A stretch of 53,303 nt of DNA from a virus, in IMG/VR virus record IMGVR_UViG_3300044613_003466, positions 1 to 53,303 of that record; one strand, given 5' to 3'. The notes beneath the pieces were generated by a model. That model saw only the letters and a program-made list of their open reading frames with translations. It had not been told where the DNA came from and did no database searches. Every line of letters starts with the position of its first letter. Positions within the stretch are counted from its first letter, which is position 1. The position numbers and the translations under genes are program-made. Positions 8,664 to 46,496 of this stretch are shown one piece after another.

Positions 8664-10169
8664 TCAGTCCGGCGGGTCGCTGCCGTCCTCGTCTGCGCCA
8701 GGATCAGGCGCTGAGTTGGTGAATGCAGATCCTGCCGGGCGAGCCTGAGTTACGCCAGCATTGGAAACCAGCGCGGCATCTGTACTCAGGATCAGGCTGG
8801 CATCCCTGGCTCTTTGCATGTCTCTGCTCAGCTCTTCAATTACACCCTCTGGTACATAGCCAAATGATAGCTGTACTTCTGACAGGCTCATAAACCCAGC
8901 CCTTACCGCCAAGATCAGCGCTGGAATTTCCTTAGTTGGGTCGATCATCTCCCGACGCGGCGGGGTATGAGCCCAACTCATTGGCCCTTTGAGCAGGCCA
9001 ACCATTCTGGCTAGCTCGTCATGCCACTCACACACCGGCGCCAGCATTCCGGGGATGCAAACCTTTCCTCGCAGGTAAGCAATCCGCCTACTGAACTCAA
9101 GCCATCCGCCCCTAAAGCTCGAATAATTAACGTCTGACAAATCACCCGTCAGTGATTCGTAAGTAATCTCGTAGGCCGCTGCTACGGCGTGAGCGTACTC
9201 ACGATGGGTGCTAACAAAATCACCGGAGCTTGGCGGGGTGAATGCTTTAAAGTCTCGACCCGGTGGGAGATGCTCAATTGCGCCAGGCTCAATTTCATCA
9301 AAATTAACTCCGATTATTTGGTTACCATCTTCATCAAGGAGTTTATCTGCATTAACATCAGAGTCGTAGCTAACCCCAAAAAAGCAAGCTGAAATTTTAT
9401 CTTTCATCTGCTGGGCCGCCCTGATGTCGCCCATATCTCGCAGAGTCAAAATCGCTGCCGTGCCAAACGGGAGCCCCATTCGCTGGCCCGCCCGCCTGCA
9501 GTCAAAATGTAAACTTATCTCTTCTTTTGGCACAAAGGTACTTTGCACCCTGACGCCAATGCCTAGCGAAGTTTCGCCAGGGTGGCTGTCTCTAATCCAG
9601 TAACCCATCAAACGGCCTGCGCTATCAAACTGCTGGCCAAATAAAATGTCTTGAGAATTGTCTTTATTGAAATCTAACCAATCAGGCTCAAGCATTTGCA
9701 CTTGCAAAGGCACTATTCCGTAGCGCTCAAACAGTTCGGGATATATCCGTTTTCGCACTAGCACGGCGCCGCGTACCGCTGTAGTCCTGGCCCCAACGGA
9801 TTGATTGCCGTACCAATCATGGGTGCCGTAAAAATCGCTATGTCGTGATTCTGCCCAGGTATTATAGCTTGATTTATATTTGCTAGTTGCGCCTATGGGA
9901 GTGCTCATAATCCCATCGCCAATCCAATTATTTACAATCACGCCAATCGCTCTGGATGCGTAGGCATCGTTATCGGCAAGATCCTGGTGCCGTTTGACCA
10001 GCCAGTAGTACGCCTGACGCAGATCGCTATTGGGGCCGCTGTTATTTGTCCACCATCCAGAGGTCCGACGGGTGTCCTCTGCAGCCTCAAACCGGGCCAG
10101 GGTGCGGCGGGCAAATTCCTGGTCATCCCGGAGCCGCTTGCCTTTTGCCTTGCTCTTACCCTTGCCCAT
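8664..10169 (-). CDS. Portal protein (lambda gpB family)
   Basis: 501 residues, the usual length for the lambda B portal family. Recognisable blocks include the N-terminal region with WWTNNSGPNSD, RTTAVRGAVLVRKR, the LQVQMLEPDWLD segment, and YEITYESLTGDLSDVNYSS with SSFRGGWLEF, which is highly characteristic. It forms the dodecameric DNA entry ring. Its start overlaps the gpW-like stop (ATGA at 10169), and the capsid fusion gene follows after 41 bases. Confidence 0.9.
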   Translation of the reverse strand: MGKGKSKAKGKRLRDDQEFARRTLARFEAAEDTRRTSGWWTNNSGPNSDLRQAYYWLVKRHQDLADNDAYASRAIGVIVNNWIGDGIMSTPIGATSKYKSSYNTWAESRHSDFYGTHDWYGNQSVGARTTAVRGAVLVRKRIYPELFERYGIVPLQVQMLEPDWLDFNKDNSQDILFGQQFDSAGRLMGYWIRDSHPGETSLGIGVRVQSTFVPKEEISLHFDCRRAGQRMGLPFGTAAILTLRDMGDIRAAQQMKDKISACFFGVSYDSDVNADKLLDEDGNQIIGVNFDEIEPGAIEHLPPGRDFKAFTPPSSGDFVSTHREYAHAVAAAYEITYESLTGDLSDVNYSSFRGGWLEFSRRIAYLRGKVCIPGMLAPVCEWHDELARMVGLLKGPMSWAHTPPRREMIDPTKEIPALILAVRAGFMSLSEVQLSFGYVPEGVIEELSRDMQRARDASLILSTDAALVSNAGVTQARPAGSAFTNSAPDPGADEDGSDPPD

Positions 10170-30327: not shown

Positions 30328-30539
30328 CCCCAACCCTTCGCACCCTCACTCGCTGGCTGACCCTTCGACCACTAAGGCCACCAGTCCCGAGCAACCCCTA
30401 TCTAAACGCCATGAGCGGCGGCAGCCTGATTGCCGGGGTTGCTTTTGTTTTTGATGCCAATGCGATTGGATTTGTTTTTGGCATTTTGACCTGCATTTGC
30501 GCTGCTCTGACTATTTATCACGCGAGGTTTCAACCATGA
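30324..30539 (+). CDS. Small two-helix membrane protein
   Basis: 71 residues starting ATG 30324 within the previous stop. Basic N-terminus (MTPTLRTLTRWLTLRPLRP), then hydrophobic stretches (SLIAGVAFVFDANAIGF and VFGILTCICAALTIYHA) giving one or two membrane helices. Overlaps the FGE-sulfatase gene start by ATGA. Unknown function. Confidence 0.6.
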   Translation: MTPTLRTLTRWLTLRPLRPPVPSNPYLNAMSGGSLIAGVAFVFDANAIGFVFGILTCICAALTIYHARFQP

Positions 30540-31555
30540 CCACTTTTGATTCCAGTCAAGCCGGCTTTGAGTTTGCTGTGAAGTTTGTCCGCGCTCAAAA
30601 CAAACGGGCCCTATTCGATAGTGCCACAGTCGCATTAGCCGAGCTGGCAAGGATTGACGCCCAGCCTCCAGCAACTGCAGCAGCTAAACCGACAGCAGAC
30701 CTAATCCCGCTGGCGTTTATTCCTGCCGGCAGTTTTCTGATGGGTTCGCCCGAGCACGAGCCTCACCGATTAAACACTGAAGGCCCCCAGCATGAGGTAA
30801 CACTGGCCGCCTTCTGGATGGCCCAGACACCGATTACTCAGGCACAGTGGCGCACGGTTGCAAGTTGGCCACGGGTCGAACGCGACCTAGGCCTTGATCC
30901 CTCGCGCTTTAAGGGCGATAATCGTCCAGTGGAGCAGGTGAGCTGGCACGATGCAATGGAATTTTGCTATCGCCTCAGCCAGGGCACCGGCAATAACTAC
31001 ACCCTGCCAAGCGAAGCCCAGTGGGAGTACGCCTGCCGAGCTGGCAGCACCACATCGTTTCATTTTGGGCCCACGATTAGCACGGAGGTGGCAAATTACG
31101 ACGGTAAATACATCTATGGCCAGGGCTCGAGGGGCATCTACCGCCAGCAGACCATCGATGTAGCCAGCTTCCCGCCCAATGCCTGGGACCTGCAGGACAT
31201 GCACGGCAATGTCTGGGAGTGGTGCCTTGATGGATGGCACGACAGCTACGGGGGGGCGCCAGTGGACGGTAGCGCCTGGATGGAGGGCGACAGCCTGGGA
31301 AAGCGCTGCGCGGCGGGTCGTGGATCAACAAACCCGCGAGCTGCCGCTCGGCCTCCCGCCTCAACAACCACCCGGACTCCCGCTACTCCAACATCGGTTT
31401 CCGCGTCTGTTGCCTCCCCTAAGCGCCGGCTGCTGCGCGGCGGGTCGTGGTCCGACGGCCCCGCCGACTGCCGCTCGGCCTTCCGCTTCGGCGTCCGCCC
31501 GGTCGCCCGCAGCAGCTTCATCGGTTTCCGCGTCTGTTGCCTCCCCCAGGGCTAA
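30536..31555 (+). CDS. FGE-sulfatase/C-type-lectin-fold protein with DGR-type variable tail
   Basis: 339 residues. Residues about 55-255 form an FGE-sulfatase (formylglycine-generating-like) domain: FIPAGSFLMGSPE, PVEQVSWHDAMEFCYRL, YTLPSEAQWEYACRAG, and GNVWEWC at 224-230. In cyanobacteria, proteins of this type are frequent targets of diversity-generating retroelements. The C-terminus (299-339: LLRGGSW...CRSAFRFG...IGFRVCC) is the lectin-fold variable repeat B. Between them, residues about 257-295 read the first repeat out of frame as an Ala/Thr/Pro/Ser-rich linker. A 7-base difference at 31305 decides which repeat is in frame. It may bind cell-surface or host ligands. Its location in the early operon is unusual for an adhesin. 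Confidence 0.85.
   Translation: MTTFDSSQAGFEFAVKFVRAQNKRALFDSATVALAELARIDAQPPATAAAKPTADLIPLAFIPAGSFLMGSPEHEPHRLNTEGPQHEVTLAAFWMAQTPITQAQWRTVASWPRVERDLGLDPSRFKGDNRPVEQVSWHDAMEFCYRLSQGTGNNYTLPSEAQWEYACRAGSTTSFHFGPTISTEVANYDGKYIYGQGSRGIYRQQTIDVASFPPNAWDLQDMHGNVWEWCLDGWHDSYGGAPVDGSAWMEGDSLGKRCAAGRGSTNPRAAARPPASTTTRTPATPTSVSASVASPKRRLLRGGSWSDGPADCRSAFRFGVRPVARSSFIGFRVCCLPQG
31306..31419 (+). repeat. Variable repeat A (DGR-type), out of frame with upstream domain
   Basis: 114 bases, equal in length to repeat B at 31433-31546. The first 18 bases and the last 27 (ATCGGTTTCCGCGTCTGTT and onward) are identical between the two, and 24 differences are all confined to the central 69 bases (31324-31392). 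Read in the repeat's own frame it encodes RGGSW...CRSASRLNNHPDSR...NIGFRVCCLP and stops at TAA 31420-31422. The FGE gene enters it in another frame because 7 bases found before repeat B (CCGGCTG) are absent here. Confidence 0.85.
31433..31546 (+). repeat. Variable repeat B (DGR-type), in frame with upstream domain
   Basis: Second copy, 127 bases downstream of repeat A. It differs from A at 24 positions. At 15 of these A has adenine and at 3 B has adenine, mostly first or second codon positions of AAY-like codons. This is the pattern of two products mutated from one adenine-rich template. Preceded by CGCCGGCTGCTGCGC (RRLLRGG), the normal entry to such a repeat. The conserved 3' end would serve as the homing-initiation region. 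Confidence 0.85.
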
Positions 31556-42851: not shown

Positions 42852-45682
42852 CAGACAATTCCCAGGGCCTGGCGCCCGTCATACGCCTGGATGTGATTCC
42901 AGAGCTGACCAATCCCATCGCTCACCATGGCCTCGGCATCCTCGCGCCGGATCCATTGCGAGCCGTCGGGTTGCTGCTGGACTGGGCCCGTTTGAATCTG
43001 GATCGTTGGGGCAAAGGTGCCGCCGCCTCTGGAGCCCCCGGCAGCGGCGCCGCTCGTGGCAGTGCGAGGGGCCGACCGATGCAGATCGATGACCTGCTCT
43101 TGAGGATGCAGCATGGCCATGAATCCGCCCCGGCCATCAAGCCCGCCAGACCGGGGGCCGTTGCCGGTGTAGCCGCCGCCGGCAAACTGGGGCACATTCA
43201 CGGGCTGGATCATCCCCAACTGCGGGCCCCGCACAGCAGCGCTCACCGAATTAGCCGCCTGGATGAGGCGGTTGATCTGCTCGATGAAGCTGTTGACCGC
43301 CCGCCCCGCCAGCGACAACGCCGAATTGATCACCCCCCGCACCGTACCAACAATTGATTCCCAGGCGTCGGTAATGGGCTGCACCAGGCCCACGGCATAG
43401 TCCCGCATCCCATCCATGGCCAGATTCCAGGTCTGCCCCAGGCGGGCAATAAGGCCATTCTCTGGGCCGATGATCGTGTCGAAGAATGCTGCAAAGTTGT
43501 CACTGATATTCGGCAGAATGTTGCTGACGTAACTGCTGATGTTGTCCATCATTATGTTCCAGCCGCCGCCGATCATTGCGACGAATCCGGTGGTGGGGTT
43601 GGCGATCAGATCCCAGAGCCCCCGGAAGGCATCGGCGATTTGGTCGCGGAATGAGAAAACGACAACAGCTGTGGCCACGGCTGCCGCGCCGATCAGGATC
43701 GGGGCAGAGACGAAACCGGCGACCAGGGCAGCCAGGCCGGTGGCTACTGATCCGAGGGTGGTGGCGATGCCCGCCAGACCTGCTGTTACCGCCGGCATGG
43801 CCCCAGCCCAGCCGGCCAGCGTGGCGCCTAGGCCAAAGCCGGCAATGGTCTTGAGAGCCATCCCAAGGCCAACCACAACGGGCAGAGCAATGACGGCTGC
43901 TGCTCCAATGGCGCCAATCCCAATTGCTATTTGCGTGAGCAGGGGATTGGTTTGGGCAAGGCCCGAAAGCGCTTGAACTACTGCAATAACACCAGGTACT
44001 AGCTGGTTAATTATAGGTACTATCAAATTGCCTATTTCAATCTGCAGCGCTTCTACGTTGTTTTTCGCTAGCTGCATTTGCGCCGCAGTGGTGCCCATTT
44101 GCACGCCAAGCTCTTTGGCCATCGATCCAGCGTAATTACCTGGACCGGCAACAGCGTCTAAAGACTTTGTCAGGTTATCTACGTTCTGAATTAACGCAGG
44201 CAAAGCCCTTGTCTCGTCACCAAAGAAATCAGAAATTATAGATGCCTGCATTTCTTTAGGCATTGCTTTGATGCGGCCAATAAAGTCTCTAATAGTAGGT
44301 TCGGCGCTCTCTTGCATTGCCCTGGCTAGCTTTAGGCCTGCATCTTTTCCGACAAAGCCTAAGGTCTGCAACGCGGCAACCTGCCGTTCAGTCATTGAAT
44401 TGCCCCGCGTCAGCGCCTTGATCATGTTGTTAAACGAGGTCGCGGCTACTTCCGTATCGGCGCCAGCCGAGATCATGGCCGCGCCAAATGCTACGGTTTT
44501 CTCTGCTGCCAGTCCCGCCTGTTGCCCAACGGCACCAGAGCGCAAGGCAAACTCCACCAGCTGGGAGGCCCTGGCTGCCGTCTGCTGGTCGAGGTAGTTC
44601 ATGGCATCAGCCAACTTCATAACTTCGGGCTGGGTCATGCCGAGGCTGTTGCGCAGCTTCGCTATTGACGTGCCGGCTTGATCAGCAGTCATCTCAAAGG
44701 CCACACTGAGGCCCGCCACGTCCTTGGCAAATGCTTTGACCTCGCTCCTAACGATACCTGAAGCACCGGCAGCAGCGTAAATTTCAGCAAACCCTTTGGC
44801 GGATACGGGCAGCTGCTTGGATAGACCGATGATCTCAGTTGATATTTCCTTGATTGCGGCCGGTGTCTCCAGGCCATCCATCACCTTGCGCACCCTGGAA
44901 AGACTGGTCTCAAAGTCCACGGCCGCTTTGGTGCTGGTCACCAGCGCAACGCCAAAGCCCGCCGCGCCAGCAGCAGCAGCCTGCCAGGATCGGCTGTTGA
45001 GCACAGCATCAAATCCCCGGCTGAAAGATGCGTCGATCCTGTTGAGGCCAGACAGGACCGACTGCAGGCGGGTGGCTTCTACGTGAACCACGCGCAACGA
45101 TTCAGCCTGAGCCTGGGCCGCCCTAAGCTGCGCATCTGCTACTTCTCTTTTTTTGGCAACAATGTTTGTGGTTATTACTAGCTCTTCTTGCGCAATTCGG
45201 TTAGCGGTCCTGGCGGCCTCGGTCTGCCGCAACATCTCTGGCGTGATCTTGCCGTAGGCGCCAGCAGTGGAAACCACCGACTGGGCTCGCTGCAGCTCCA
45301 GTTGGGTGGCCGTCTTTTTTGCCTGGGCCGTCTTCAGCTCGCCGGCTAACTGCTCTTCTGTCTGCTTGCGCCGCAGCTCCGCGCCTTTGACCTCCAGTGC
45401 CGCCATTTGGTTCTGAGCCGCCGCCCGATCCCTGTCGTTATCCAACAGCTTCATCCGCGACGCCAGCACCTGCTTATCGGCGTCCAGAATCTGGATCGAT
45501 GCTGCCGTGGCCGCAGCCATCTGACGTTCTATCCCGTCGGTGCTGAAGACGCGAGCATTCTCCTGGGCCGCCAGCTTGGCCGATTTCGACACATTGATCA
45601 GCGTCTCGGAGAGCTTCGTGACGCTGCCCATCCCTGCGACTTCGGCCCCAATCCTCAGGATCGCGTCAAAATTGACGGCCAT
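42851..45682 (-). CDS. Tail tape measure protein (TP901 family)
   Basis: 943 residues. The TP901-type core (FETSLSRVRKVMDGLETPAA, IYAAAGASGIVRSEVKAFA, FAAAMISAGADTEVA-like GAAMISAGADTEVAATSF) is at about 245-560, preceded by a long coiled-coil region (about 25-230). Hydrophobic segments occur at about 600-690 (VVALPVVVGLGMALKTIAG-type). It sets tail length; at 943 residues a tail of roughly 140 nm would follow from the usual rule of 0.15 nm per residue (inference). Next to the chaperones as usual. Confidence 0.9.
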   Translation of the reverse strand: MAVNFDAILRIGAEVAGMGSVTKLSETLINVSKSAKLAAQENARVFSTDGIERQMAAATAASIQILDADKQVLASRMKLLDNDRDRAAAQNQMAALEVKGAELRRKQTEEQLAGELKTAQAKKTATQLELQRAQSVVSTAGAYGKITPEMLRQTEAARTANRIAQEELVITTNIVAKKREVADAQLRAAQAQAESLRVVHVEATRLQSVLSGLNRIDASFSRGFDAVLNSRSWQAAAAGAAGFGVALVTSTKAAVDFETSLSRVRKVMDGLETPAAIKEISTEIIGLSKQLPVSAKGFAEIYAAAGASGIVRSEVKAFAKDVAGLSVAFEMTADQAGTSIAKLRNSLGMTQPEVMKLADAMNYLDQQTAARASQLVEFALRSGAVGQQAGLAAEKTVAFGAAMISAGADTEVAATSFNNMIKALTRGNSMTERQVAALQTLGFVGKDAGLKLARAMQESAEPTIRDFIGRIKAMPKEMQASIISDFFGDETRALPALIQNVDNLTKSLDAVAGPGNYAGSMAKELGVQMGTTAAQMQLAKNNVEALQIEIGNLIVPIINQLVPGVIAVVQALSGLAQTNPLLTQIAIGIGAIGAAAVIALPVVVGLGMALKTIAGFGLGATLAGWAGAMPAVTAGLAGIATTLGSVATGLAALVAGFVSAPILIGAAAVATAVVVFSFRDQIADAFRGLWDLIANPTTGFVAMIGGGWNIMMDNISSYVSNILPNISDNFAAFFDTIIGPENGLIARLGQTWNLAMDGMRDYAVGLVQPITDAWESIVGTVRGVINSALSLAGRAVNSFIEQINRLIQAANSVSAAVRGPQLGMIQPVNVPQFAGGGYTGNGPRSGGLDGRGGFMAMLHPQEQVIDLHRSAPRTATSGAAAGGSRGGGTFAPTIQIQTGPVQQQPDGSQWIRREDAEAMVSDGIGQLWNHIQAYDGRQALGIV

Positions 45683-46044
45683 CAGGAACCCCTCAGCAGT
45701 GTCAACAGTTCCAACTCGATGACGCGCAGATCATCCAGCAGCGCAGCAACCGCACCACGGCCGCGCCGCAGGCCCGCCAGGGCGATCACCGCCGGATAGT
45801 TGAGCCCGGTGCGCACTCGGTACGGATGCCCCTCTGGGGTGTATTCAGTGGCCCACTGCCATTGGGTTTGGACCTGGCACCAGAGCAAGAAGGCCTCCCA
45901 GTTCTCGGGCCATATCCAGCAAGTGGGCTCAACAGGTTCTGGCCGATCAGAAGGCACAAAGCCGACAATCCCTAGCCGCTTTGCTTCCTGCTCCAGGCGA
46001 GCATTTTCCTGCGACTGGGTTTCAGCGCTGCCGCCGGTGGTCAT
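45682..46044 (-). CDS. Tail assembly chaperone 2 (DUF1799-like)
   Basis: 120 residues with the WPENWEAFLLWCQVQTQW aromatic-rich block and YPAVIALAGLRRG, typical of DUF1799 proteins downstream of tail chaperone 1. The start overlaps the preceding stop by ATGA. No slippery heptamer is visible at the junction, so a lambda-type G/GT frameshift is not supported; re-initiation is more likely. Confidence 0.65.
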   Translation of the reverse strand: MTTGGSAETQSQENARLEQEAKRLGIVGFVPSDRPEPVEPTCWIWPENWEAFLLWCQVQTQWQWATEYTPEGHPYRVRTGLNYPAVIALAGLRRGRGAVAALLDDLRVIELELLTLLRGS

Positions 46045-46496
46045 TTGCCGATGCCATTCCCTCGCGATTTCCCTGAGGTTGGCGGCTTTCCCACTTCAGG
46101 ATCCGTTAGTGTGTTCCATGCGGAAACAAGCGAATTGGCTACCCCAGGAAATTCGATTACTTTTTTCTTGTTTTCAGCAGTGAAAGACATTGGCTCATCA
46201 TTATCGCCGCTAAGCATGTCTTCCCCCCAGCCAACAAGAATCTTGTCAGCGATTGGAAGAAGGCTTTTCCTTTCCAGTCCATCAGCAGCAGACGGCTCCA
46301 GACTGCCAAGCTCAATCGCTCTAATGATTGCAATGTAGGAGCGAAATTCTTCGCGCATATTTTCAATCTCGGTTTGCTGGCCTCTTTCAAAGATTGCCGT
46401 AAATGATCCATGCTCTTGCTTTCCGTCTCCAATCGGGTAGCTAAACTCCACCTTGCCTGTAAAGGTGGTGCCAGCTCTGTCAATGTTGAAAGCCAT
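46041..46496 (-). CDS. Tail assembly chaperone 1
   Basis: 151 residues (MAFNIDRAGTTFTGKVEFSY). An N-terminal beta part (GTFTGKVEFSYPIGDGKQEH region) and helices (NMREEFRSYIAIIRAIELG; ILVGWGEDMLSGDNDEPM) match the small chaperones that coat the tape measure. Located between tail tube and DUF1799-like gene as usual. Confidence 0.65.
   Translation of the reverse strand: MAFNIDRAGTTFTGKVEFSYPIGDGKQEHGSFTAIFERGQQTEIENMREEFRSYIAIIRAIELGSLEPSAADGLERKSLLPIADKILVGWGEDMLSGDNDEPMSFTAENKKKVIEFPGVANSLVSAWNTLTDPEVGKPPTSGKSRGNGIGK

Follow-up and report, generated by a model that had tools for sequence, protein, structure and literature searches.

Tandem variable repeats in two reading frames behind candidate -1 frameshift sites in a phage gene of the diversity-generating retroelement type

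Results

A target gene with two variable repeats

The DNA analyzed here is the whole 53,303-nucleotide stretch of IMG/VR record IMGVR_UViG_3300044613_003466, hereafter the window. It carries terminase, portal, head protease, tape-measure and tail-chaperone genes and belongs to a long-tailed phage. On the plus strand, an open reading frame at 30,536–31,555 (ATG at 30,536, TAA at 31,553–31,555) encodes a protein of 339 aa with an FGE-sulfatase domain (PF03781, Pfam E = 1.9e-48), in agreement with a preliminary description of the sequence that had placed the repeats discussed below on such a domain. The gene, supported by ORF, Pfam match and alignment, is a target of the diversity-generating retroelement (DGR) type. 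Its variable domain is of the C-type-lectin/FGE fold type, as indicated by the Pfam match and by the sequence resemblance of a relative with a single variable repeat (VR), L008, to TvpA (PDB 2y3c); an AlphaFold model built from 17 aligned rows had a mean pLDDT of 40, too low for use. Among named phages, only distant relatives of the target gene were found. Two cultured Microcystis phages, MaMV-CH01 (L201:6929-7729) and Ma-LMM01 (L202:4899-5729), encode an FGE protein with a VR-like C-terminus, which diverges far more between the isolates than does the rest of the gene.

The 3′ part of the gene consists of two direct repeats of 115 nt, VR1 (31,305–31,419) and VR2 (31,432–31,546), which are 79% identical, are spaced by 127 nt and form the sole long repeat family between 29 and 34 kb. 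The preliminary description, which gave the repeats as 114 nt, had counted 24 differences confined to a core, with adenine in copy 1 at 15 of them, in copy 2 at 3 and in neither at 6; we find the same 24, all central, and the same classes. It had also treated both repeats as lying in one reading frame, and here it was wrong. Because a spacing of 127 equals 1 mod 3, the repeats are read in different frames (VR1 in -1 and VR2 in 0 relative to the FGE ORF), which rules out their use in a single frame.

Only in the -1 frame does VR1 read LRGGSWINKPASCRSASRLNNHPDSRYSNIGFRVCCLP and then stop, showing the pattern LRGGSW...CRSAS...IGFRVCCLP; its own TAA (31,420–31,422) directly follows the repeat. Judged from the sequence, the -1 frame makes VR1 a genuine C-terminus that ends in a stop of its own, and the predicted frameshift product has 295 aa. 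In the 0 frame, VR1 reads CAAGRGSTNPRAAARPPASTTTRTPATPTSVSASVAS, a linker rich in Ser, Thr, Pro and Ala that is an insert relative to single-VR proteins in the protein alignment, and the 0-frame product ends in VR2. The genetic code accounts for this composition: wherever VR codons have the form NNC, C becomes the middle base of the 0-frame codons, which can then specify only Ser, Pro, Thr or Ala, never a stop. The linkers seen fit that expectation.

Probable diversification from a host template

The preliminary description had read the repeats as DGR products of an adenine-rich template and had proposed looking for a homolog of their core beside a reverse transcriptase (RT). Both proposals hold. 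We predicted the template from a profile of 39 VRs, which is bimodal, with approximately 25 columns containing all four bases and the others nearly fixed. A pattern search for an AAC-rich template found none in the viral contigs and 201 genomes; a nucleotide query with the predicted template found a 97% match, built of AAC codons, in the picocyanobacterial genome G269, beside an RT, Avd and an FGE-VR gene. G269 belongs to the family of the Cyanobium MAG G020. Its RT is intact and carries RYVDD, and its Avd matches NF033474 above the cut-off of that model. A second genome, G304, also has a matching template, RT, Avd and FGE-VR gene. Mismatches are concentrated at template adenines: over 54 VRs the rate is 55% at A versus 6–10% at C, G and T, and in the window template A accounts for 11/17 mismatches of VR1 and 21/27 of VR2. 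The window VRs share a few fixed differences from the template that was found and were therefore probably copied from a sister allele of it.

Two loci of Cyanobium-family genomes (L083, L084) are complete DGRs with template, RT, Avd and FGE target; a survey of cyanobacteria, in the passages cited here, reported no DGRs in Synechococcus and Prochlorococcus (PMC7517822). At a further locus (L038:9179-10006), a DGR RT gene breaks off at RYV and is followed by the end of a template repeat, reflecting either a deletion or an assembly collapse.

No RVT_1 match was found in the window, where the preliminary description had seen no RT, or in 27 related phage records, many of which are perhaps fragments. 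With 28 phage records lacking RVT_1, supply by the host in trans is the best account, and the VRs, whose 3′ end is common to phage and hosts, are likely diversified by host machinery acting in trans. In a close pair, the window and L001 (94% flank identity), VR1 is unchanged, whereas VR2 differs at 21 sites, of which 18 are template A.

A slippery site precedes VR1

Immediately upstream of VR1 is the slippery heptamer G_GGA_AAG (31,297–31,303, plus strand), in phase with the FGE ORF (0 frame CTG GGA AAG). The predicted trans-frame peptide at the junction is ...SLGKALRGGSW..., and the predicted 0-frame peptide is ...VASPKRRLLRGGSW. A Shine-Dalgarno-like GGAGGG (31,282–31,287, plus strand) ends 9 nt before the slip site, with an anti-SD duplex energy of -9.8 kcal/mol; across the genes, a GGAGG-like element about 10 nt 5′ of the slip site gives -6.3 to -10.2 kcal/mol and is strong in most of them, but it is weak in L048 (-3.8 to -6.2 kcal/mol). 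Beginning 6 nt past the slip site, a possible stimulatory hairpin (31,310–31,347, plus strand) would pair GCGGCGG (31,310–31,316) with CTGCCGC (31,341–31,347), both arms being template-fixed VR bases. Its z-scores are -2.4 and -3.3 in two computations, and those of relatives lie mostly between 0 and -2.5; because most z-scores are weak, we set RNA structure aside as main evidence.

A separate start for VR1 is ruled out in the window, where the -1 frame has no ATG, GTG or TTG before the repeat; the same is true of L003, L019 and L020. As far as the sequence goes, use of VR1 in the window requires a -1 frameshift at the slippery site just before it. It is very improbable that VR1 is reached otherwise, by RNA polymerase slippage on G/A runs or by an internal start in the -1 frame. 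A G5 run occurs in six genes, and in several relatives the -1 frame contains an ATG or GTG 5′ of VR1; however, the G/A runs are short, the four genes just named offer no start, and an internal start would drop nearly all of the FGE domain.

The same phage provides a comparison site. Its tail-assembly chaperone G/T pair (45,682–46,496, minus strand; G at 46,041–46,496, T at 45,682–46,044), directly upstream of the tape-measure gene, has an in-phase G_GGA_AAG in G (46,092–46,086, minus strand), from which the -1 frame opens into T. The L001 genome has A_AAA_AAG at the same place. These chaperone heptamers, GGGAAAG and AAAAAAG, are the two canonical ones seen before VR1. G_GGA_AAG is the lambda gpG-GT site, and both it and A_AAA_AAG are highly shift-prone in E. 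coli (PMC5009743, PMC7618472).

The layout recurs in related phage genes

Scans of viral contigs added 14 phage genes with tandem VRs to that of the window, and all 15 place their first VR in -1 and a later one in 0. Paired genes have VR spacings of 124, 127 or 130, each 1 mod 3, and a -1 frame stop 2–4 codons after GFRV despite their different linkers. The codons before VR1 are CTG GGA AAG in the window, L001, L004 (twice), L005, L031, L032, L048 and L016; GCA AAA AAG (A_AAA_AAG) in L019; and CTG GGG GAG (GGGGGAG) in L003, L007, L013, L020, L033 and L035. On GGGGGAG, we infer that a slipped tRNA-Gly could pair perfectly with GGG, and a slipped tRNA-Glu with GGA at the cost of one G-U pair.

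Of the genes with a first VR in -1, 16/16 have an in-phase slip site, versus 0/31 of the others (Fisher 7e-13), a count in which the non-canonical GGGGGAG (6/16 genes) joined the list of slip sites after it had been seen; canonical X_XXY_YYZ heptamers alone occur in 10/16 versus 0/31 (Fisher 1.5e-6). Both Fisher values overstate independence, since the genes are related and the FGE-domain tree does not force more than one origin. The tree has just one starred pair, too few for a test by phylogenetically independent pairs. For reference, 0.17% of the codons of these phages carry an in-phase canonical heptamer (slip sites before VR1 counted), and GGA makes up 11% of glycine codons. A loose scan for a slip site followed by a VR pattern returned mostly unrelated contigs among the matches listed.

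The window and L001, which have GGGAAAG, fall among GGGGGAG genes on the tree, and L016 (GGGAAAG) forms a pair with L033 (GGGGGAG); the type of slip site has therefore changed within a constant layout. Among the matches listed, host and phage genes with a single VR have it in frame 0, except for L016 and L059. L016 (minus strand, VR at about 9860-9985) has a single VR in -1 behind GGGAAAG, with a VR2 tail, and is plausibly a VR1–VR2 recombinant; if frameshifting works there, it is the sole way to that VR. L059 has an A-rich, template-like VR copy in an odd frame. In L042, a single VR lies in frame 0 and the slip site is destroyed (CTG AGA AAG). Tandem VRs in one frame occur in L012 and L041, which have other architectures. 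L012 (6668-7862) has four in-frame VRs followed by an FGE domain whose end falls just where a VR would usually start, an arrangement that looks like a circular permutation.

The multi-cassette gene L048 contains five successive -1 VRs, each behind an in-phase CTG GGA AAG and each with its own TGA, followed by a 0-frame VR and, farther downstream, one more. In cassettes 2–5, only some 8–9 codons of -1 frame separate the previous stop from the VR, so these VRs are hardly reachable except by frameshifting. We judge L048 the strongest single piece of evidence that frameshifting may be in use. The same locus (L048:1500-3900) also has a VR before the FGE domain, and its seventh downstream VR lies in a further frame, past the gene stop.

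The tandem repeats could in principle be artefactual, had assembly wrongly joined population variants of one VR: such repeats are variable within populations and have common ends, which confuses assemblers, and L005 (10600-10960) and L006 (646-885) are otherwise matching loci that differ by exactly one 127-bp VR unit. The extra copy in L005 ends the 0 frame, and the difference is either a real copy-number change or such an artefact. As an explanation of the layout as a whole we regard this as extremely unlikely, given that it recurs in separate metagenomes (L001/L002, L031/L036, L007/L037) and that in 15 genes the junctions are specific to the lineage, the frames stand in a fixed relation and a linked slip site lies outside the repeat.

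A silent leftover of tandem duplication is the more serious alternative, though still an unlikely one. Only the 0-frame protein would then be made, and GGGAAAG would merely encode Gly-Lys. VR1 could persist as DGR-coded sequence that is stop-free in every frame, its invariance between the window and L001, where VR2 changed at 21 sites, would suit a disused copy, template copying alone could conserve its fixed bases, and one event may be ancestral to all relatives. Against this stand the strict association of slip site and -1 VR, the five in-phase sites of L048, the switching of the site between slip-prone forms on the tree and its loss in L042, and the position of the -1 stop next to VR1 in genes with different linkers. 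Moreover, the VR1s of different phages differ at 15.5/25 template-A sites on average.

Discussion

DGR targets are usually pictured as single genes that express one version of the variable end at any given moment. The source phage described here is a phage of lake cyanobacteria, and its target gene has two tandem DGR-rewritable endings. We think it likely that programmed -1 frameshifting decides which tandem VR forms the C-terminus. Ribosomes remaining in frame would read VR1 as a linker and end in VR2 (339 aa); those slipping by -1 on G_GGA_AAG, aided by the upstream SD-like element and perhaps by the hairpin in the fixed part of VR1, would translate VR1 and terminate immediately behind it (295 aa). 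One mRNA of one gene would thereby give two differently diversified proteins, with a picocyanobacterial host presumably supplying template, RT and Avd. The VRs, the template, the frames and the recurring slip sites are observed, whereas we infer the frameshift and its rate, the supply in trans and any ligand binding by the products from sequence.

Conversion of template AAC codons to NNC would create no stop in the VR frame, and the middle-C codons of the 0 frame would create none either. With both frames stop-free under mutagenesis, VR1 could be rewritten while VR2 stays reachable; the use of AAC codons, which prevents stops in the VR frame, would also keep the other frame open. The reading frame itself appears to serve for storing and expressing two or more diversified ends; if so, the phage gains a standing mixture of specificities.

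With less confidence, we lean toward a two-layer system in which a host retroelement rewrites arrays of cassettes and serial -1 sites act as a translational selector, producing several ends at set ratios. VR1 may then be a slow or archived cassette and VR2 a fast one, and L048 would have up to six alternative ends.

The layout suggests that host machinery diversifies phage genes, and in its DGR part the gene is a remote (trans) target of known kind. Like cyanobacterial DGR proteins, including ‘remote’ targets, as described in the cited passages (PMC7517822), the gene has a C-terminal, adenine-templated VR on a CLec-type domain and a template elsewhere; tandem CLec targets of Thiohalocapsa, as far as the cited passages describe them (PMC10907252), are a near known system with the same CLec-type, template-diversified VR. 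Unlike the targets in those passages, ours is phage-borne and has at least two VRs after one domain, in different frames and with a slippery site first, an arrangement that the passages of neither paper contain. Bordetella phage BPP-1 likewise has a phage gene that is DGR-diversified at its 3′ end, but with its own RT, Avd and template and one VR (PMC3240598), whereas RT, Avd and template were not found in the phage here. In the open-access literature, we found no paper linking DGRs with slippery-site frameshifting, and the DGR papers there that mention frameshifting concern other matters; tandem VRs coupled to frameshift sites appear to be new. In its translational part, the system resembles lambda gpG-gpGT and E. 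coli dnaX (PMC5009743, PMC7618472), with an in-phase G_GGA_AAG or A_AAA_AAG and a -1 ORF and, as in dnaX, an SD-like element upstream of the slip site. Those genes have fixed sequence in both frames, whereas here the VR past the slip site is itself read in two frames and the shift would choose between hypermutated endings.
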